DNA from: Deltaproteobacteria bacterium
GTDB lineage: Bacteria > Desulfobacterota > Dissulfuribacteria > Dissulfuribacterales > JALVPX01
Direction: 5' to 3'
DNA: 35,003 nt
NCBI GenBank assembly: GCA_027023445.1
Contig: JALVVK010000084.1
Coordinates: forward strand, 1-35,003
Of this stretch, positions 6,028-17,950 are shown piece after piece (positions within the stretch are counted from its first letter, which is position 1; every line of letters begins with the position of its first letter). The notes beneath the pieces were generated by a model, which saw nothing but the letters and a program-made list of their open reading frames with translations, was not told where the DNA came from and made no database searches. The position numbers and the translations under genes are program-made.

Positions 6028-7929
6028 ATGAAATTCTGCTTGTTCTCAAGTAAAAGGTGGAATAAAAATTCAGGCATGTCCGGCATACCCTACATAAAAG
6101 GCAGGCTTTACCCCATGGATTTCACAAAACGCCTGGGGGAAGCGGAAAAAGACGGGCCGTTTGTCTTTCTCGAGACCTCCCGTGTGGTGGAGGACGAGCG
6201 GTGCAGTTATCTTTTTACCCGTCCTGTGAGGATGCTTGAGGCCTTTGACGCGGATCAGGTCGAACTGGCCCGCAGAACGGCGGACGAGGCCCTTGGCGCC
6301 GGATACTGGATTGCGGGTTACTGGGCCTATGAGCTTGGCTATCTTTTTGAGTCGAGGCTCGTGGGCCTGCTGGACATGCACAGGCCCCGTGGCCCCCTGA
6401 TGTGGCTTGGCGTGTTCAGAAAGCCGGAGGTGTGGCGGCACGGGCTTGACGGCCCATCCGTTCCCCTTGACAGGGACATTGGCGTGCGGGATCAAATGGG
6501 CCCGCTTGAGCTGGAAGTGGACCGATCTGAATATGTCAGGGCCATAGCGAGGATAAAGGATTACATCAGGCAGGGGCATACGTATCAGGTAAATTACACG
6601 GTCAGGGGCAGGTTTGATTACAGCGGAACCCCGCTTGACATGTACCGCGCGCTAAGGGCGCAGCAGGCGGTCTCTTACTCCGCCCTGGTCAATACCGGGG
6701 AGAGATCGATCGTGTCCATGTCTCCCGAGCTTTTTTTCCATAAAAAAGGCGGATGGATCTGGTCAAGGCCAATGAAGGGCACTGTCCACAGGGGAAGAAC
6801 CGTGGCAGAGGATATGGAGCTTGCCCGCTTCCTCGCCTCGGATCCAAAGAACAGGGCGGAAAATGTCATGATCGTGGACCTTCTTAGAAACGATCTTGGC
6901 AGGCTGTGCGAGACAGGAAGCGTCAGTGTGCCGGATCTTTTTCCCGTTGAGCGGTATCAGACACTTTTCCAGATGACCTCTACCATCAGGGGCCGCCTTG
7001 CGCCTGGCGCCGACTGGTTCAGCCTGCTCCGGCACCTGTTCCCCTGCGGTTCGGTCACCGGCGCGCCCAAGATACGCACCATGGAGATCATCGCGGAGCT
7101 TGAATCCTCACCACGGGATGTCTACACAGGATCCATCGGATATGTTTCTCCTGGAGGCGAGAGCTGTCTCAGCGTGGCAATAAGAACGGTTATACTTCAG
7201 GGCGGGCGGGCAGAGATTGGAATCGGTAGCGGGGTCACCATGGATTCAGACCCGGACGCTGAATATGAGGAATGCGCGCTCAAGGCGGATTTTCTTAAAA
7301 GGCCGTTTAATGAATTTGAACTGATAGAGACCCTCAGGTGGGAACCTGAGAAGGGCTATTTTTTACTGGACAAGCATCTTGACAGGCTCATGGAATCCGC
7401 TGAGTATTTTTCCTTTGCGGTCAGCAGGGATGCGGTTGTCTCAAGGCTGCGCCAGGCGGCGGGAGATTTTATCAGGGTGACTCACAGGGTCAGGCTGACA
7501 GTCTCAAGGGATGGGCGTGTGGCAATATCCAGCCTCAGGCTCAAGGATGTGCCGACTCCTGTCCTGTTTGATATATCCGGCCAGAGAGTGGACGCGCATG
7601 ATCCCTTTCTTTTCCATAAAACAACCAACCGGTCTCTTTTCGATAAAGAACATGAAAGGGCGGTATCCCGGGGGCTTTTCGATACGTTGTTTCTGAATGA
7701 GAGGGGAGAGCTTACACAGGGAGCGATCACCAACCTCTTCATAAAAAAAGACAACAGGCTTTACACCCCTGTCCTCGATTCAGGCCTGCTTCCAGGAACC
7801 CTGCGAAGGCACCTGATCGAAACAGGAGAGGCACGGGAGGCCGTTTTGCGTCCTGAAGACCTCTCAAACGCCAGGGAGATATACCTGGGAAATTCAGTGA
7901 GAGGGCTCTTGAGGGCAAGGAAATTGTGA
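6028..7929 (+). CDS. pabBC: Bifunctional aminodeoxychorismate synthase component I / class IV aminotransferase (PabB-PabC fusion)
   Basis: 633 aa; chorismate-binding motifs RPMKGTVHRGRT, FPCGSVTGAPKIRTMEII, GIGSGVTMDSD; C-terminal aminotransferase-IV region LFLNERGELTQGAITNLFI and LLPGTLRRHL; start may be internal (6076 or 6115). Confidence 0.88.
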   Translation: MKFCLFSSKRWNKNSGMSGIPYIKGRLYPMDFTKRLGEAEKDGPFVFLETSRVVEDERCSYLFTRPVRMLEAFDADQVELARRTADEALGAGYWIAGYWAYELGYLFESRLVGLLDMHRPRGPLMWLGVFRKPEVWRHGLDGPSVPLDRDIGVRDQMGPLELEVDRSEYVRAIARIKDYIRQGHTYQVNYTVRGRFDYSGTPLDMYRALRAQQAVSYSALVNTGERSIVSMSPELFFHKKGGWIWSRPMKGTVHRGRTVAEDMELARFLASDPKNRAENVMIVDLLRNDLGRLCETGSVSVPDLFPVERYQTLFQMTSTIRGRLAPGADWFSLLRHLFPCGSVTGAPKIRTMEIIAELESSPRDVYTGSIGYVSPGGESCLSVAIRTVILQGGRAEIGIGSGVTMDSDPDAEYEECALKADFLKRPFNEFELIETLRWEPEKGYFLLDKHLDRLMESAEYFSFAVSRDAVVSRLRQAAGDFIRVTHRVRLTVSRDGRVAISSLRLKDVPTPVLFDISGQRVDAHDPFLFHKTTNRSLFDKEHERAVSRGLFDTLFLNERGELTQGAITNLFIKKDNRLYTPVLDSGLLPGTLRRHLIETGEAREAVLRPEDLSNAREIYLGNSVRGLLRARKL

Positions 7930-7951: not shown

Positions 7952-8773
7952 CTATGCCCTGGTTGCCTCTTTCAGGGACCTTACAAACCTGCCTACTTCT
8001 TTGACCAGTTCGGGTCTGGCCCTCAGCCCGCCGTCCGTTTCCACTGTGTTTGCCTGTATGACGCGCACAATGGCGCTTCCCACGATAACGCCGTCAACGT
8101 GCCCTGAGAGCATTTTTACCTGTTCAGGCCTGGAAATTCCAAAGCCTACGGCAACCGGGCAGTTTACCAGCCTTTCTGTTTTTTCAAGCCCGTCCTGCAG
8201 TTCTGCCGGCAGGTCCTGCCTGGCGCCGGTTATGCCGGTCACGGACACGTAGTACAGGAATCCCCTGGTTGCCTTTCCGATCTTTTTTATCCTCTCATCC
8301 GGGGTGTTAGGCGCGATGAGAAAGATGTTGTCAATGCCATGCGCCTTTGCCGATTTCATCCAGTCCGCCGCTTCCTCCAGTGGCAGATCAGGTATTATGG
8401 TGCCATCGATTCCGGCTGCCGAGGCATCCGCGGCAAACCTGTCAAGCCCGTATTGCAGTACGGGATTATAATAGCCCATCAGCACCAGCGGAATGTCCGT
8501 ATGCCTTCTGACCCTTTTTACCAGGTCAAGAACCTTTTCGGGATTCACTCCTCCCATGAGGGCGCGGTGGCTTGATGCCTGGATGGTCGGCCCGTCTGCC
8601 AGGGGGTCTGAAAAGGGCATTCCCAGTTCAATAAGATCGGCCTCCTGGTCCGCCATCTCCAGGATAAGGGATTCAGTGGTCTGGATGTCCGGGTCGCCTG
8701 CCGTGATGAAGGGGATCAGTGCGGTCTCATTTGCTGCCCGGAGTTTTTTGAACATTTTATCTATGCGTGTCAT
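7952..8773 (-). CDS. trpA: Tryptophan synthase alpha subunit
   Basis: LIPFITAGDPDIQTT, DLIELGMPFSDPLADGPTIQ, GFGISRPEQV; track ORF extends to 8839 but ATG at 8773 (MTRIDKMFKKL) fits the family. Confidence 0.95.
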   Translation of the reverse strand: MTRIDKMFKKLRAANETALIPFITAGDPDIQTTESLILEMADQEADLIELGMPFSDPLADGPTIQASSHRALMGGVNPEKVLDLVKRVRRHTDIPLVLMGYYNPVLQYGLDRFAADASAAGIDGTIIPDLPLEEAADWMKSAKAHGIDNIFLIAPNTPDERIKKIGKATRGFLYYVSVTGITGARQDLPAELQDGLEKTERLVNCPVAVGFGISRPEQVKMLSGHVDGVIVGSAIVRVIQANTVETDGGLRARPELVKEVGRFVRSLKEATRA

Positions 8774-8807
8774 GCCATTCTCCTGTAAAGGGGCAAAATA
8801 TAATCTG

Positions 8808-10025
8808 TTATACGAGGATTTCCGCAACGGTCTGGACATCCTTGTCTCCCCTGCCGGAAAGATTGATTACCACCACAGTGCCTCTTGGAAGTCCAGGCGC
8901 CAGTTTCTGCAGGTAGGCCACCGCGTGGGCGCTTTCCAGCGCTGGGATGATGCCCTCTGTCTCGGAAAGCAGCCTGAATCCGTTGAGGGCCTCCTCGTCG
9001 TCTATCGCCTCGTAACGCACCCTGCCCGTATCCTTGAGCGCGCTGTGTTCAGGCCCGACTCCGGGATAGTCAAGGCCGGGGGCCACGGAATGCGCGCCCT
9101 TTATCTGGCCCCATTTGTCCTGGAGCAGATAACTCATGGTGCCGTGCAGCACACCGGGAGAGCCGGCTATCAGGGTGGCTGAATGATGCTCTGTGTCAAT
9201 GCCCTCGCCCGCGGCCTCAACCCCTATGAGCCTGACCTCCTCATCCCTCACAAAGGGATGGAAAATTCCCATGGCGTTGCTGCCTCCGCCCACGCAGGCG
9301 ATTACAACATCGGGCAGTCTTCCCAGGGCCTTTTTGATCTGGCTTCTGGTTTCCCTGCCGATGACGCTCTGGAAGTCACGGACCATGACGGGATATGGAT
9401 GCGGCCCGACCACGGAGCCGATGACGTAATGCGTGTCCTGCACATTGGTAACCCAGTCCCTTATGGCCTCGTTTATGGCATCCTTTAGGGTCTGAGTGCC
9501 TGATTCCACTGTTATCACCCTGGCGCCGGTAAGTTGCATGCGGAAGACGTTCATGGACTGGCGGACCGTATCCTTTCTGCCCATGTAGACCTCGCATTCA
9601 AGTCCCATGAGAGCCGCTGCGGTAGCGGTGGCAACACCATGCTGCCCGGCCCCTGTCTCTGCGATGATCCTGGTCTTGTTCATGCGTTTGGCAAGCAGCA
9701 CCTGGCCTATGGTGTTGTTTATCTTATGAGCCCCTGTGTGGGTAAGGTCTTCCCGTTTAAGGAACACCTCCACGCCTCCCAGCGCCTCGCCAAGGCGTCT
9801 GGCGTGATAAAGCGGGGTAGGGCGGCCCACGTAGTCCTTGAGGATATCCCTCATCTCTTTTTTGAAATCCGGATCTCTTATGGCCTCTTTGTAGGCCTTT
9901 TCAAGCTCTGTAAGGGCGGGCATAAGGGTTTCCGGCACGAATTTTCCACCGTAAATCCCGAAATGTCCCCTCCTGTCCGGATTGATGGTCTTTTTTCCGT
10001 TGGAATCAGTCATTGTCTTGTTCAT
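8808..10025 (-). CDS. trpB: Tryptophan synthase beta subunit
   Basis: [33 protein letters not shown] (PLP Lys), [25 protein letters not shown]. Confidence 0.97.
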
Positions 10026-10677
10026 GATAGCTCCTGACCGCCTGTATAAAGGCCTCTACCTTTTTCATGTTTTTAATGCCCGGGGCGTCTTCAAGACCCG
10101 AACTTGCGTCGATTCCCCATGGCCCTGCCGCCCGTATGGCCGAGATTACGTTATCCGGGGTAAGCCCGCCAGCCAGTATCACGGGCCTTGTCAGGCGCCT
10201 GCAGGCATGCGCGGCAATACTCCAGTCAAAGGTTTTACCCGTTCCCCCGGATGCTTCCGGGGCCCAGGTATCCAGCAGAAAACCCCTTACAGCCTGCTGA
10301 TACCGATCAAGCGTGTTGATATCGTCCCTGTTCCTGATCCTGTGGGCCTTTATCACCCTGGGCGCGAATTTCGCGCACAGCTCAACGGATTCATTGCCGT
10401 GCATCTGGATAAGATCCAGCTGGCAGCTGGCCATGATCTCGGAAAGTTCTTCAGGGGACGGATCCACGAACACCCCGACCGTCTGGACCAGGGGAGGAAG
10501 GTCACTGATGATTTCCATGGCCTGCCGGACAGTAACCTGCCTGGGACTTTTTGCGAAAACCAGACCGATGGCATCAGCGCCTGCCGCCGCCACGGCTGTT
10601 GCCTGCTCCCTGGTGGTAATGCCGCAGATCTTGATCCTGGGCCGGGAGGTCTTTGCCGGGTATGTCAGATGCTTCAT
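10006..10677 (-). CDS. trpF: Phosphoribosylanthranilate isomerase
   Basis: [48 protein letters not shown]. Confidence 0.95.
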
Positions 10678-11453
10678 GCCCCTTTTCCTGCCTCAACAAG
10701 GCGGCGGAGATGCGATGGCCTCTCAGGAGATGCCGCCAGCGCCTCGCCGATAAGGGCCGCTGTCACCCCGTGTTCAAAAAGCTGTTTCATGTGATCGGCG
10801 CTTGAGATGCCGCTCTCACTTACCATCGGTATGTTCCCCGGCATGATCTGCCTGATGGCAAAGGTGGTCTCCAGGGACACGCTGAAATCGCGCAGGTTGC
10901 GGTTGTTCACGCCAATAAGGCCCGCGTCCGCGGCAAGCGCCCGTTCCATCTCGTGGGGGTCATGAACCTCCACCAGCGCGTCCAGGCCTGATTCCATGGC
11001 ATGGGCAAGAAGTTCCTCCAGGAGCACCTGATCAAGGATGGCAACTATAAGCAGTATGGCGTCGGCTCCAAAGGCCGCGGATTCATCTACCTGAAAATGA
11101 TCAATGATAAAATCCTTTCTCAGGAGAGGAAGGGAGACTTTTCCCCTTATTTGCGGAAGAAACGCAAGGTTTCCCTGAAAGAATTTTTCATCTGTCAGGA
11201 CGGATACGGCCCTTGCCCCGCCTGTTTCGTAATCCTCCGCAAGGGCTACCGGATCGAAATCAGGGCATATCAGGCCCTTGGAGGGAGAGGCCTTTTTTAC
11301 CTCGGCAATAATTGAAACACCGGGATCCGAGATAAGGGCCTTCTTAAACCCGCGCCCGGGGCCGGGGTCAAAGGAGGGTGGATTCAGGCCGCGGCTTTTG
11401 CGGTCTTTGACCTCTTCTTTTTTGTGAGCGACGATTGTATCCAGTATATTCAT
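10674..11453 (-). CDS. trpC: Indole-3-glycerol phosphate synthase
   Basis: SIIAEVKKASPSKGLI, LLRKDFIID, IGVNNRNLRDF, VSESGISS. Confidence 0.95.
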   Translation of the reverse strand: MNILDTIVAHKKEEVKDRKSRGLNPPSFDPGPGRGFKKALISDPGVSIIAEVKKASPSKGLICPDFDPVALAEDYETGGARAVSVLTDEKFFQGNLAFLPQIRGKVSLPLLRKDFIIDHFQVDESAAFGADAILLIVAILDQVLLEELLAHAMESGLDALVEVHDPHEMERALAADAGLIGVNNRNLRDFSVSLETTFAIRQIMPGNIPMVSESGISSADHMKQLFEHGVTAALIGEALAASPERPSHLRRLVEAGKGA

Positions 11454-12493
11454 GAGTTTTCTTTTTTACAGGCCTTTGATGCGGATATCAATGCCTTGAG
11501 CTTGTCCATGGCACGGCCTGAGTCAATGGTGTCCCGGGCGATTCCGACCCCTTCCCTTAATGAGGGCGCCTTTCCTGCCAGGAAGATGGCCGCCCCGGCA
11601 TTTAAAAGCACCATGTCGCGCCTGGGTCCTTTTTTTCCGGAGAGTATATCAAGGGTGATCCGGGCGTTTTCCGCGGGCCCGCCGCCCTTAAGATCTTCAA
11701 GGGAGCAGGGCTTAAGCCCGGCGTCCTCAGGCGTAATGACGGTTTGCGAGACCTTTGTGCCGTCCCATTCCGCGACCACGGTTGGCCCAAGCAGGCTCAG
11801 TTCGTCAAGGCCCCCTTCACCGTGTACCACCCATGCCCTCAGGGCGCCCAGGCGGCCGAGAACATCGGCCAGGACAGTGGTGAGCTCCGGATCGTAAACA
11901 CCCATGAGCTGGACGTTTGCCCCGGCAGGGTTGGTCAGGGGACCCAGCACATTGAATATGCTCCTGATTCCTATCTCCCTCCTCGGGCCGATGGCGTATT
12001 TCATCGCCGGATGAAGGCCGGGCGCAAACAGGAATCCTATGCCTGTCTGCTCAATACATCCTGCGACCTCCCCGGGTGAAAGCGAAAGTTCCACGCCAAG
12101 GGCCTCCAGCACGTCGGCGCTGCCCGACCGGCTGGATACCGAACGGTTTCCATGCTTTGCCACACTGCAGCCTGCCCCTGCCACCACAAAGGCCGAGGTC
12201 GTGGAGACATTGAATGTGCCAATCCCGTCCCCCCCTGTGCCGCATGTGTCCACGAGGACCTCGTCTTCCGCCAGTTTTACAGGCACCTTTATGGCCTTCA
12301 TCCTCATGGCCCTGGCGGCGCCTGTAATTTCCTCCGGCGTTTCCCCCTTTACGCGCAGGGCCACCAGAAAGGCCCCTATCTGCGCTGGAGTGGCCCGGCC
12401 CTCCATGATTTCCGTCATTACGGAGATGATCTCCTGTTCTTTCAGGTCCGTGCCCTGAACAAGCTGTCCAATCGCTTTCTTGATTGCTTCCAC
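11450..12493 (-). CDS. trpD: Anthranilate phosphoribosyltransferase
   Basis: DTCGTGGDGIGTFNVSTTSAFV, KHGNRSVSSRSGSADVLEALG, FLFAPGLHPAMK, FNVLGPLTNPA. Confidence 0.97.
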   Translation of the reverse strand: MEAIKKAIGQLVQGTDLKEQEIISVMTEIMEGRATPAQIGAFLVALRVKGETPEEITGAARAMRMKAIKVPVKLAEDEVLVDTCGTGGDGIGTFNVSTTSAFVVAGAGCSVAKHGNRSVSSRSGSADVLEALGVELSLSPGEVAGCIEQTGIGFLFAPGLHPAMKYAIGPRREIGIRSIFNVLGPLTNPAGANVQLMGVYDPELTTVLADVLGRLGALRAWVVHGEGGLDELSLLGPTVVAEWDGTKVSQTVITPEDAGLKPCSLEDLKGGGPAENARITLDILSGKKGPRRDMVLLNAGAAIFLAGKAPSLREGVGIARDTIDSGRAMDKLKALISASKACKKENS

Positions 12494-12495
12494 GT

Positions 12496-13059
12496 CTACA
12501 TCTCCAGGAAATTTTTCAAAAGATTCATGCCTTCAGGGGTCATGATTGATTCGGGATGGAACTGGACCCCTTCGATGGGAAGGCTCCTGTGCCTTATGCC
12601 CATAAGCTCATCCTGTTCAGACCACGCGGTCGGCTCCAGGCATTCAGGAAGGCTTTGCACATCGACAATCAGGGAATGGTATCTCATGGCCTCAAAGGGG
12701 TTTGGAAGGCCCCTGAAAACCCCGCGGCCGTCATGTCTGATCATGGAGGTCTTGCCGTGCATCAGCCTTTCCGCACGCACTACCCTGGCGCCAAAGGCGG
12801 CGCCAATTGACTGATGCCCGAGGCACACGCCAAGAATGGGAATCCTTCCGGCAAAGTGCCTGATGGCGGCTATGGAGATTCCGGCTTCATCAGGGGTGCA
12901 TGGGCCAGGAGAAATCAGAAGCCTGGAGGGATCCATGGATTCGATGCCTTTTATGTCGATTTCGTCGTTTCTGAATACCTTGATCCGGGCGCCCAATGTT
13001 CCCAGGAACTGGACAAGGTTATATGTAAAAGAGTCGTAGTTGTCGATTACAATAAGCAT
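12496..13059 (-). CDS. trpG: Anthranilate/aminodeoxychorismate synthase glutamine amidotransferase subunit
   Basis: [44 protein letters not shown] (Cys), [11 protein letters not shown]. Confidence 0.95.
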
Positions 13060-13115: not shown

Positions 13116-14588
13116 TCAGGAGTTTTCGGCCACGTGTATCGCCTTTAAAAGGGCCCCTCCCTTGTTAAGGGTTTCCTCCCATTCCCTTGTGGGATCTGAA
13201 TCCGCGACAATGCCGGCCCCTGCCTGCAGGTACAGCATGTCGCCCTTCTGGCACAGGGTCCTGATAGTAATTGCGAGGTCCATGTTTCCGGAAAAACCCA
13301 GATATCCCACCGCGCCCGCGTATGGTCCCCTCCGGCTGTGTTCAAGCTCCTCTATGATTTCCATGGCCCTTATCTTGGGCGCGCCACTCACGGTGCCGGC
13401 AGGGAAACATGCCCGTATCACGTCAAACATGTCCCTGCCCGGGAGAATTTCTCCGGTCACCCCGGATACTATATGCATTACATGCGAGTAACGTTCAATG
13501 GTCATCAGGTCCTTGACCTTGACCGTGCCCATTTTTGAGACACGGCCAACATCGTTTCTTCCCAGGTCAACGAGCATAAGATGCTCGGCCCGCTCCTTCG
13601 GGTCAGCTAACAGCTCCTTTTCCAGGGCCAGATCCTCGGCAGCAGTGGCTCCCCTGGGCCTGGTCCCGGCAATGGGCCTCAGCTCAATCGTTTTTCCGGT
13701 CAGGCGAACCAGAATTTCAGGAGATGAGCCGATCAGGACCTCGTCCCTCATGTGAAGGTAATACAGATATGGAGAGGGGTTAATGCGCCGCAGGGCCCTG
13801 TAGAGTTCAAAGGGAGGCACATGGCTCTGGCCTGAAAATCGCTGGGAAAGGACCACCTGTATGATGTCACCCGCCCTTATATACTCTTTGGCTCTCCTTA
13901 CCATCTGTTCAAATTTTTCCTGGGGCACTTCCGGGGAAAGCGCTGTGGGTGGCGTGGACCTGGATGGAGGATCAGGGTAGTCCAGGCCCTGACGGATTTT
14001 CCGGATCACCTTGTCAATGGATTTCAGGCCGTGGGAATAAAGGGCGTCCAGGTCGTCGTCCCTGTCTACTGAAAGGCAGGCGATAATCTGAAGGCTTTGC
14101 CTGATGTTATCGTATACGAGAAGAAGCTCAGGGAACATGAAAAGGGAATCGTGGAAGCCCATGTGTTCATCAAGGGTTTCCGGAAGCCTTTCCATGAAAC
14201 GTACCATGTCGTAGCCCAGGAAGCCTACAGCTCCACCGTAGAACCTGGGAAGGCCGGGGATGTCAGCGGGCCTGAACCGTTTCATGGTGTCTCTCAGCGC
14301 CTCCAGTGGATCCGGGACCGTGGATCTCGTTTTTTCCCCGCGAACCTCGGTAAAGACCTCGTTCCCCCGGGAGCCGAAGATCATGAACGGATTAAGGCCG
14401 ATAAAACTGTACCTGCCCCAGTTTTCGCCGCCCTCCAGGCTTTCCAGGAGAAACGAGTAGCCGTCTCCATCCAGTTTTTTATAAAGGGATACCGGGGTAT
14501 CCAGGTCAACCGGAAGTTCCTTCCATATGGGAACAATGTTGTTTTGACCGGCAAGTGCCTTAAAGGTATCCAGATCAGGGGTAACCAT
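13116..14588 (-). CDS. trpE: Anthranilate synthase component I
   Basis: LLES-type N-terminal motif ([19 protein letters not shown]), [42 protein letters not shown]. Confidence 0.97.
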
Positions 14589-14645
14589 GTGTGAATCCGC
14601 TTCCCAAGTCCGTGCCCTGGTTTGATCAGTTATGGGTTTTTAATA

Positions 14646-14684
14646 AAAAGGGCCGTGGACATCATTGTTGTCCACGGCCCTTTT
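14646..14684 (-). terminator. trp attenuator: intrinsic terminator upstream of trpE
   Basis: Perfect 16-bp inverted repeat AAAAGGGCCGTGGACA-(7 nt)-TGTCCACGGCCCTTTT; minus strand continues TTTTTATTAAAAA (U-rich tract). Confidence 0.88.
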
Positions 14685-14704
14685 GACTTCAGACGATATT
14701 GCTT

Positions 14705-14803
14705 TCAGCCTGAACGGTGTGGACACCGCCTTCCCGCATTCCAGTTACACCACTGCCATCGGATAGCTGAATTTGCCGGGCTGAAAGGTTTTTTTATTGC
14801 CAT
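14705..14803 (-). CDS. trpL: trp leader peptide MAIKKPFSPANSAIRWQWCNWNAGRRCPHRSG (start may be the in-frame ATG at 14809)
   Basis: 32 codons with three Trp codons in a six-codon stretch (TGG CAG TGG TGT AAC TGG), ending ~20 nt upstream of the attenuator hairpin and upstream of trpE; too short for the ORF track. Confidence 0.85.
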   Translation of the reverse strand: MAIKKPFSPANSAIRWQWCNWNAGRRCPHRSG

Positions 14804-14877
14804 TATCATTGAACCACGTAATTCCACTTGCAGATTTATTCATGCTGTCCATATCTCATCACATAAATGTTCAACTT

Positions 14878-14883
14878 TGTCAA
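14878..14883 (-). promoter_or_regulatory. Putative -35 element (TTGACA) of the trp operon promoter
   Basis: Perfect TTGACA on the minus strand, upstream of trpL; no convincing -10 at ideal spacing. Confidence 0.35.
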
Positions 14884-15344: not shown

Positions 15345-16862
15345 TTATGCCTTCTGAATAATGCCGCAGCCGCCCCGCCTGGGATCTCCCACCCCTGATC
15401 CCCCGGGTTCCACCGCATGAACTCCCCCGAAGTATACGTCAATACCCGGCCATATGTTCACACGGAAGGATTCTCCGACCTGCGCCGTCGATTTTTCAGG
15501 ATACCCATCTTCCACCTGCAGGGATTCACCGTCCCAGTGGATCCGGGGAGAGTTTACCGCTGCTTCCAGGTCCATTTCAAAGTCCAGGCAGTTGACTATG
15601 ACCTGTGTAATGGCAGTGCGTATCCGTTTGCTGCCTCCGCTGCCAAGTACCAGCTTCACGTCATCTTTTCTCATTACTATGGTTGGAGACATCATGGATG
15701 AAACCCTGATCCCGGGGGGAGAACAATGGAAGCCCTGCGGATGCAGATCATCCTCCCCCATCATGTTGTTGAGCATGATGCCAGTGGACGGAGCAAAATA
15801 TCCTGAGCCTTCCCCGTTTGAATTGGTCATGCTTGCCACATTTCCAAAGGTGTCGGCAATGCTCATGTGCGTGGTGCCCCTGAAAAATCCCCTCCGGATT
15901 CCGGACGCAATGGCCCCGGGCACATCAGGATCAAGATGTTCAAGGTTTGAAAACCCGCTTTTCCTTTCCCTGTCCACCGCTTGCATAACCTCTGTCATCA
16001 GCAGCAGGTGGCCGGGAGAACCCCATTTCTGGCCGCGGAGCGGGAACCGTTCAAGGATCTTGAGCGCAAGGGCTATAAGCGAGCCTCCAGACGAGGGGGC
16101 TGGATTTGTCAGGATCCTGTTTTTTCTGTATGTGAATTCCAGCGGGTTTCTTTCAATTACCTGATAATCGCGCAGGTCCTTCAGTGTGATAAGCCCTCTG
16201 CCCTGATCCATGTCGAGCGCGACGCGTCTTGCCGTTTCTCCCTCATAAAATTCCCGGCCCATGTGTTCGGGCAGGGTTTCCAGGAAGGACGCGAGATCCG
16301 GGTTTTTAAGCAGGTCGCCCTCGCAAAGGTATCTGCCATCCGGGCTGAATATGGACCGGCCTTCAGGGGAATGAAGCATGATGGGGCGCAGAAGATCCAG
16401 GAAATAGGCCTGGTGGGAGTTGAGGCTGACGCCGTGTCTGGCAAGATGGATGGCAGGCTGCAGAATTTCCCTGAGGGGCATGGAGCCAAGGCGCCTGTGT
16501 ACGTGAAGCAGTCCCTTCAGTGTGCCGGGTACGGCAACCGAACCAAGACCTATATTAAAAATCTGGTCTGAACCTGGAAAACGCACGGTTACAGGGAAAA
16601 AATGCGGTTTTGGGCACGGGTCCGACCTGTCCTTTCCGGGGGTGTCCACAAAAAAATCAAAAAGTGTTTCCATACCCCCTGCTGTCCGTGCCAGCAGGAA
16701 TCCTCCGCCTCCAAGGCTCGTGAGGGCAGGTTCTGCCACCGAACCGGCAAAGCCCGCGGCAACAGCCGCGTCGAAGGCATTGCCCCCGGCCTTGAGTACC
16801 TCTGCCGCGGCATTGGCCACCATGGGATGTCCTGCCGCGATAGTCGCGTGGTCCATTTTCAT
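15345..16862 (-). CDS. ggt: Gamma-glutamyltransferase family protein, no evident signal peptide
   Basis: MKMDHATIAAGHPMVANAAAEVLKAGGNAFDAAVAAGFAGSVAEPALTSLGGGGF; catalytic Thr region GTTHMSIADTFGNVASMTNS; GSGGSKRIRTAI; start at 16862 overlaps the upstream stop (ATGA); track ORF reaches 17117. Confidence 0.88.
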   Translation of the reverse strand: MKMDHATIAAGHPMVANAAAEVLKAGGNAFDAAVAAGFAGSVAEPALTSLGGGGFLLARTAGGMETLFDFFVDTPGKDRSDPCPKPHFFPVTVRFPGSDQIFNIGLGSVAVPGTLKGLLHVHRRLGSMPLREILQPAIHLARHGVSLNSHQAYFLDLLRPIMLHSPEGRSIFSPDGRYLCEGDLLKNPDLASFLETLPEHMGREFYEGETARRVALDMDQGRGLITLKDLRDYQVIERNPLEFTYRKNRILTNPAPSSGGSLIALALKILERFPLRGQKWGSPGHLLLMTEVMQAVDRERKSGFSNLEHLDPDVPGAIASGIRRGFFRGTTHMSIADTFGNVASMTNSNGEGSGYFAPSTGIMLNNMMGEDDLHPQGFHCSPPGIRVSSMMSPTIVMRKDDVKLVLGSGGSKRIRTAITQVIVNCLDFEMDLEAAVNSPRIHWDGESLQVEDGYPEKSTAQVGESFRVNIWPGIDVYFGGVHAVEPGGSGVGDPRRGGCGIIQKA

Positions 16863-17950
16863 TTCCAGAATTCTCTCCTCAGCCTGTCTATGGTACGGGG
16901 AAAACTCAGCGTCCGGCGGTAAAGCGCCCTTTGCCTGTCGCTGCTTGTTCCCTCGCTCAGTATTCTGTTGAGTGGCAGCATATATACACGGGAGCCGAGG
17001 TTTCTGGCAATGGGTGAGAGGGTATCCACAAGGCTGGACGCGGCCTGGGCGATAGTGCTCATGCTGCCCGACGGCGAGACATAGTTTCCACGCAGACCGT
17101 ATCTTACCGCCTGCCATCTATTGGCCAGAATGAGCTGGCGGTGCATAAGCCCGCTGAGGGACCTGTTCATGATTGCCTGAACCGTTGCCTGGATAAGCGC
17201 TCCAATGGCAATTATTTCATCCAGTCGGCAGGGCAGGTCACATATCCTGACTTCCAGGGTGCCAAGCTCCGGATGGGGCCTTACGTCCCACCAGATGTCG
17301 CGCACCTGTTTGATGGCTCCTGTCTCCTTCAACATGTCCATGAGCCGCTGATATTCCTCCCATGTGCCAAGTGGGGCAGGTATGCCGGTTCTGGGCAGTG
17401 CGCCAAAGAGCCTTGAACGGTAGGAATAGAGGCCGGTGTCCCTGCCTTCAAAAAACGGGGAGGACGTGGTCAATGCGAGAAATATGGGCAGGAAGGCCCG
17501 GATATGATCAAAAACCATTATGGCGGTTTTGCCGTCCGGCATGCCTATGTGTACGTGAAGTCCCTGGGTGATAAGCCTTCTTCCGACCTCCTGGAGTTCC
17601 CGCATGATTTCCCTGTATCGTTCGCCACTGGTGAGGATCTGGCCTGACGAAGAGGAAAAGGGATGCAGACTGGCAGCATAGGTTACGCAGCGTGCCTGGC
17701 CGGATATCTTTTCCAGATAGCGGATGGTTGCTGCCAGATCATCCAATGCCTCATCAGGGGAATCGCATATCCCGGTGGTAATCTCTACCATGGATCGGAT
17801 AAATTCCTCCTTTACGCGGGTTTTATGCGCCTTGTCCACCATCTCAAGGATCCTGGGAGCGGCGGGTGTCAGCGCAAAAGAGTCCGGGTCAAGGAGCTGG
17901 AATTCCAGCTCAATGCCAATGGTAAGCGGTTTACTCGCTGTAAAAATCAT
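16859..17950 (-). CDS. GCS2/YbdK-type carboxylate-amine ligase (glutamate-cysteine ligase-like)
   Basis: TIGIELEFQLLDPDSFALTP, EEFIRSMVEITTGIC, QGLHVHIGMPDGKTAI, WWDVRPHPELGTLEVRICDLPCRLDE. Confidence 0.85.
   Translation of the reverse strand: MIFTASKPLTIGIELEFQLLDPDSFALTPAAPRILEMVDKAHKTRVKEEFIRSMVEITTGICDSPDEALDDLAATIRYLEKISGQARCVTYAASLHPFSSSSGQILTSGERYREIMRELQEVGRRLITQGLHVHIGMPDGKTAIMVFDHIRAFLPIFLALTTSSPFFEGRDTGLYSYRSRLFGALPRTGIPAPLGTWEEYQRLMDMLKETGAIKQVRDIWWDVRPHPELGTLEVRICDLPCRLDEIIAIGALIQATVQAIMNRSLSGLMHRQLILANRWQAVRYGLRGNYVSPSGSMSTIAQAASSLVDTLSPIARNLGSRVYMLPLNRILSEGTSSDRQRALYRRTLSFPRTIDRLRREFWK

Follow-up and report, generated by a model that had tools for sequence, protein, structure and literature searches.

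The 35,003-nucleotide stretch of DNA analyzed here (the window) very probably carries, on its minus strand, a ribosome-mediated transcription attenuator of the trpEGDCFBA operon. A short ORF containing codons for the regulated amino acid lies upstream of the operon for its biosynthesis, an intrinsic terminator lies between this leader ORF and the first structural gene, and an antiterminator that shares a strand with the terminator is, by computation, freed by a ribosome stalled at the Trp codons. A preliminary description of this DNA had proposed attenuation through a leader peptide, a terminator, and an antiterminator formed by regions 2 and 3 (R2:R3). Comparison with relatives supports this interpretation, and every coordinate and pairing in that description matches the sequence to the base.

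Leader ORF, terminator, and operon

The leader ORF (14803-14705, minus strand) has 32 codons (MAIKKPFSPANSAIRWQWCNWNAGRRCPHRSG, then stop), and its coordinates proved exact when rechecked against the sequence. Its RWQWCNW stretch contains three Trp codons in six, the putative regulatory codons, at 14758-14756, 14752-14750, and 14743-14741 (span, 14741 to 14758), and its stop codon lies at 14707-14705. Three in-frame starts are available (ATG 14803, ATG 14809, and GTG 14827) and the choice among them is uncertain; none has a strong Shine-Dalgarno sequence, the best reaching −3.3 kcal/mol versus −5 to −8 kcal/mol in most relatives. Another ORF (MDSMNKSASGITW...AVV, then stop; 14852-14745) was considered as the leader and rejected, as it has one Trp codon, is in another frame, and stops inside the Trp cluster. 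Short ORFs with at least three Trp codons in six number five in the 35-kb window versus 1.6 expected by chance; such clusters are not rare in themselves, and it is the full arrangement that is remarkable.

Region 3 (AAAAGGGCCGTGGACA; 14669-14684, minus) and region 4 (TGTCCACGGCCCTTTT; 14646-14661, minus) are the 5′ and 3′ arms of a terminator hairpin (14684-14646) with 16 perfect pairs, a 7-nt loop, and a U tract of five (TTTTT; 14645-14649, minus). The perfect 16-bp terminator with U tract and then trpE, as first described, was confirmed, and the hairpin is conserved in relatives. The R2 core, TGTCCAC (14719-14725, minus), is the 5′ strand of the antiterminator and lies inside the leader ORF. 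Its partner, GTGGACA (14675-14669, minus), belongs to the terminator 5′ arm, which is common to both structures and more conserved than the 3′ arm. The leader region folds far more strongly than shuffled sequence (z = −5.3; 0 of 200 shuffles).

The operon 3′ of the attenuator is complete: trpE (anthranilate synthase component I; 13116-14588, minus; TIGR00564, 569 bits) is the first regulated gene, followed by trpG, trpD, trpC, trpF, trpB, and trpA (7952-13059, minus). Just beyond trpA, a 633-amino-acid ORF on the plus strand (6028-7929) represents a second chorismate-utilizing enzyme; it is 40% identical to the C-terminal part of TrpE over about 266 residues and is possibly a pabB fusion. Upstream of the leader, a candidate −35 box (TTGACA; 14878-14883, minus) was recognized by inspection, with TTGAC-type boxes comparably placed in relatives, and was not detected by a promoter consensus scan of the window. 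A weak candidate −10 box (GATGAG, with a TG extension) lies at 14860-14855 (minus).

Proposed mechanism and simulated ribosome states

From this arrangement we infer promoter activity, translation of the leader, ribosome stalling, and termination in vivo. Transcription would begin at a site before the leader ORF. Under a shortage of charged tRNA-Trp, the translating ribosome would halt at any of the three Trp codons, leaving R2 (14725-14719), just past its leading edge, free to pair with the newly made 5′ arm (14675-14669); this pairing would prevent the terminator from forming, and the polymerase would continue into trpE. With ample Trp, the ribosome would proceed to the stop codon (14707-14705) and cover R2, allowing the 16-bp terminator to form. 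If the leader is not translated, a 9-bp helix between CTTTCAGCC (14787-14779, minus) and GGCTGAAAG (14710-14702, minus, overlapping the leader stop codon) would sequester R2, making termination the default.

Folding with and without ribosome-masked regions, as the preliminary description had proposed, agrees with this scheme. In the window, stalling at the first, second, or third Trp codon (W1, W2, or W3) gave R2:R3 pairing probabilities of 0.94, 0.95, and 0.95, respectively, compared with 0 for a ribosome positioned at the stop codon and 0.02 for RNA free of ribosomes; i.e., stalling gives the antiterminator and the other two states give termination. The low value without a ribosome arises because the 9-bp helix, which sequesters R2 with a probability of 0.91, and a local R2 hairpin form.

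The 9-bp pairing is exact, as first described, and locks R2 in ribosome-free RNA of the window, but it has no conserved counterpart among relatives. As a perfect 9-bp complement within about 160 nt is expected ∼0.05 times by chance (an estimate; roughly 1 in 20), the role given to the helix here is conjectural. Ribosome-free RNA of relatives mostly favors the antiterminator. When the simulations retain the RNA behind the stalled ribosome, the 9-bp helix could close around the ribosome and work against antitermination, and this is the chief mechanical worry for the attenuation model. At equilibrium, full-length RNA favors the terminator in nearly all leaders, so the model depends on kinetics, as is general for attenuators. 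A further pairing of the preliminary description, CAGTGGTGT with ACACCGTT, found no conserved counterpart in relatives.

Conservation within the order

Of the 49 genomes of the order, 45 gave a TrpE match at the threshold applied, and the regions upstream were then read. The module precedes trpE in 18 genomes (that of the window and 17 others) from nine genera and four families, as an ORF that carries two to four Trp codons and then a hairpin whose 5′ arm is GGCCGTGGAC or close to it. At three loci (L020, L027, and L032), the hairpin is present with just one Trp codon in the leader frame. The parts, their conservation, their spacing, and their pairing can be read directly from these genomes, and the combination in position, together with its conservation in 17 further genomes, is well beyond chance.

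Several features of these leaders favor sensing by the ribosome. First, in eight relatives of one genus, 18 leader codons differ in amino acid and 2 differ silently, while the peptide stays at 30 residues and retains four Trp codons, one of them displaced; drift of this kind suits codon sensing and not a function of the peptide. Second, R2 starts mostly 19 to 23 nt (up to 30 nt) after the last Trp codon, such that a stalled ribosome would just clear it; in L026 the distance is 22 nt, a copy of R2 at 12 nt having been misassigned. Third, with a single exception among the leaders, the stop codon falls 11 to 18 nt beyond the start of R2, such that a ribosome completing the peptide would cover R2.

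The TGTCCAC/GTGGACA antiterminator is likewise backed by comparison: the GUCCAC core is paired in all 15 aligned sequences, GUCCAC of R2 facing GUGGAC of the 5′ arm in 90 of 90 cells, with G-U pairs used where R2 varies. Terminator pairs close to the loop, by comparison, fail in up to 9 of the 15 sequences, and the 5′ arm is kept where they do, suggesting that the arm is held by its pairing with R2. Both Trp-codon conservation and covariation had been proposed as checks on the regions upstream of trpE in relatives. Trp codons are found at the equivalent place in relatives; formal covariation within the order was not above that of shuffles and is uninformative because the arms are nearly invariant.

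The hairpin could alternatively be an ordinary intrinsic terminator of upstream transcription, e.g., of the gamma-glutamyltransferase gene (15345-17117) that precedes the leader on the same strand and ends at 15345, next to a Trp-rich frame that arose by chance. GGCC-type terminators with weak model scores do exist in relatives, and ORFs with three Trp codons in six do arise by chance in 35 kb. However, the hairpin lies ∼660 nt past the end of that gene and 58 nt before trpE, 17 other genomes have a Trp-rich ORF at the same spacing with an R2 complementary to the 5′ arm, and this arm persists even with terminator pairing broken. A plain terminator is thus extremely improbable.

Other bacteria regulate trp genes by other sensors, namely, T-boxes, Trp-binding riboswitches, TRAP-like proteins, or promoter repressors, and one of these could be the main sensor here; a repressor might also act in addition to attenuation. 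Rfam searches of the window gave no match at gathering score and nothing plausible at an E value of ≤1, only noise (plant and animal microRNAs and a Burkholderia small RNA matching the hairpin). A T-box structure with a tRNA specifier loop had no Rfam match in the window, and none of 15 related loci matched Rfam at gathering score. The conserved Trp codons, ribosome-sized spacing, and stop codon shortly after R2 make sense only if a ribosome is the sensor, and we consider another main sensor very unlikely.

The sister genus of the same family (two genomes; L019, L023, and L183) has no leader and no hairpin upstream of trpE. It keeps gamma-glutamyltransferase beside trpE, with a carboxylate-amine ligase before it where the contig reaches, and only a few tens of bases separate the end of the glutamyltransferase gene from trpE. 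The module has thus been gained or lost between close genera. The preliminary description had named loci that keep trpE without Trp codons or hairpins as evidence against attenuation. Such loci occur in the sister genus and not in the 18 genomes of nine genera; as these keep the module, the absence reads as lineage loss, not refutation. In one relative (L013; 524 bases preceding trpE), a transposase-like ORF occupies the place upstream of trpE that holds the attenuator in sister genomes.

In simulations of stalled leaders before the 3′ arm exists, antiterminator probability was 0.97 to 1.00 in 19 of 19 leaders versus means of 0.34 to 0.70 for shuffled R2 controls; at most 5% of shuffles reached the native value, the window being the 5% case. 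Pairing of the window R2 with its own arm alone (RNAduplex) was not significant against shuffles (P = 0.15), and the case rests on comparison. This duplex spans only 7 bp and ranks near the bottom for species matching, and few antiterminators in the set are weaker. Given this short, poorly matched duplex and the poor Shine-Dalgarno sequence, the window may hold a weak attenuator, though all its parts are intact. The attenuator might even be decaying in this lineage, such that it still terminates, antitermination is weak, and the operon remains largely attenuated regardless of Trp availability. An antiterminator of the weakest class, a leader without a strong Shine-Dalgarno sequence, and a sister genus without the module would all fit decay. 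Nevertheless, the ORF, the three Trp codons, the exact spacing, the R2 core, and the perfect terminator are intact, and the stalled simulation still gives a probability of ∼0.94; we regard decay as unlikely.

A possible phylum-wide family

A covariance model (R1) of 15 modules of the order, window included, was used to search 398 genomes of the phylum; no phylum match outside the order had been used in its training. All of the 24 strongest matches outside the order have a Trp-rich leader with two to five Trp codons, and at least three Trp codons in eight were found at 45 of 84 inspected loci versus 6 of 539 background windows. Within the order, weak matches (E value of greater than about 1e−3) and some stronger ones are mostly plain terminators, GGCC-type among them, so the family counts rest on the leader test and not on the model alone; weak phylum matches were counted as members only if the leader was aromatic rich. 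One exception among the inspected order matches (L189) is a Trp-leader fragment on a contig end. The window, itself in the training set, combines a full-length match, a Trp-rich leader, and an R2 complementary to the 5′ arm.

The genes downstream of R1 loci are those for trpE (27 loci, including the TrpE-clade3 form), iorA (10 loci), trpD (8 loci), TrpB-like proteins (7 loci), DAHP synthase (7 loci), and ADH synthase (6 loci). The iorA leaders have three to five Trp codons (L062, L064, L065, L069, L074, L084, L094, L096, and L100) or two (L145), and the iorA member tested scored above the cutoff of TIGR03336. Trp-rich attenuators precede the TrpB-like genes (TIGR01415; L072, L078, L082, L089, L092, L098, and L105). 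Several leaders of DAHP synthase and ADH synthase genes combine many Phe, Tyr, and Trp codons (e.g., MKQGLADRFYGFWFYFNYFYGGPPVG, then stop). Such mixed leaders share the hairpin core of the Trp leaders and precede shikimate pathway genes, namely, those for DAHP synthase (L101, L106, L125, and L139), those for ADH synthase (L111, L121, L123, L136, L140, and L142), and genes judged aroK-like and chorismate synthase-like by inspection (L118). At L122, a Tyr-rich leader (AYLYYYYYY) with a GGCCGTGGGC hairpin lies upstream of a further gene. In the window's own genome, a search for a DAHP synthase attenuator found a hairpin and no aromatic leader; this hairpin (AGGCCGTGAGATCTGCTGCTCCACGGCCT; genome G000, contig C20, 57670-57730; L148 and L156) is probably the terminator of the preceding gene.

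At the loci beyond the order, antiterminator pairing often reaches into the loop of the terminator (e.g., GGGAGGUCUAUCCACCGC with GGCCGUGGGGACCUCCC), and R2 is matched to the arm of its own species: the native mean was −21.5 kcal/mol versus −16.0 kcal/mol for between-family swaps, and 0 of 20,000 permutations of 23 family representatives attained the observed value (P < 5e−5). We see an even chance that the window belongs to an undescribed attenuator RNA family spanning the phylum, in which a near-fixed triple (GUCCAC-like R2, GCCGUGG-type 5′ arm, and CCACGGC 3′ arm) with Trp-only or mixed Phe/Tyr/Trp leaders would control trpE, trpD, TrpB-like, DAHP synthase, archaeal-type ADH synthase, and iorA genes.

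Taken alone, the window is well supported as an ordinary trp gene regulator of known type, and the more interesting part is the phylum-wide family. With species-matched antiterminators, such a family would make the mechanism widespread in this deltaproteobacterial group. Rfam has no model detecting these attenuators, and the family offers a ready way of annotating them. It would also yield testable predictions of gene function, i.e., a biosynthetic iorA and aromatic control of ADH synthase. Trp-rich attenuators before iorA suggest a biosynthetic, Trp-repressed role of indolepyruvate ferredoxin oxidoreductase at these loci, where the enzyme would make tryptophan and not degrade it.

Comparison with known systems

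Attenuators of amino acid genes have been described as mainly a feature of gammaproteobacteria that was seldom transferred (PMC3766115); trp attenuators have been reported from both proteobacteria and Actinobacteria (PMC1262725). A literature search with thin coverage of subscription journals gave no description of such attenuators in this deltaproteobacterial group, and an earlier mention is possible.

The window module resembles trpL of Escherichia coli and other gammaproteobacteria (RF00513) in having Trp codons in a short leader ORF, in its location before trpE, and in mutually exclusive antiterminator and terminator structures with region 3 common to both. Unlike E. coli trpL, which spans 45 nt, the leader ORF here has 32 codons, R2 lies inside it, before the stop codon, and no conserved 1:2 hairpin was found across relatives. 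Model R1 has no match at the E. coli locus; conversely, the window module has no Rfam match, and the RF00513 Trp_leader covariance model gave none in the window even at an E value of ≤1.

The trp attenuator of Sinorhizobium meliloti (rnTrpL) also lies upstream of trpE(G), and trans functions have been reported for its peptide (peTrpL) and small RNA (PMC7298713). The leader peptide here drifts freely apart from its Trp codons, which lends no support to a similar trans role. The uORFC-13-1 aroF and uORFC-8-2 cysS motifs, reported from Acholeplasma and Rhodobacterales (PMC8632094), are likewise uORF-type attenuators of amino acid-related genes, one with an aromatic target, but the RNA here is a different one. 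The classical trp attenuators of Actinobacteria have a UGG-repeat leader and complementary triples conserved over large distances (Seliverstov et al. 2005, PMC1262725). The modules described here share with them the UGG-repeat leader and the conserved complementary antiterminator/terminator triple, in another phylum and with other sequences, the core being gGCC-rGCy-GGCC in Actinobacteria and GUCCAC-GUGGAC-GUCCAC here.
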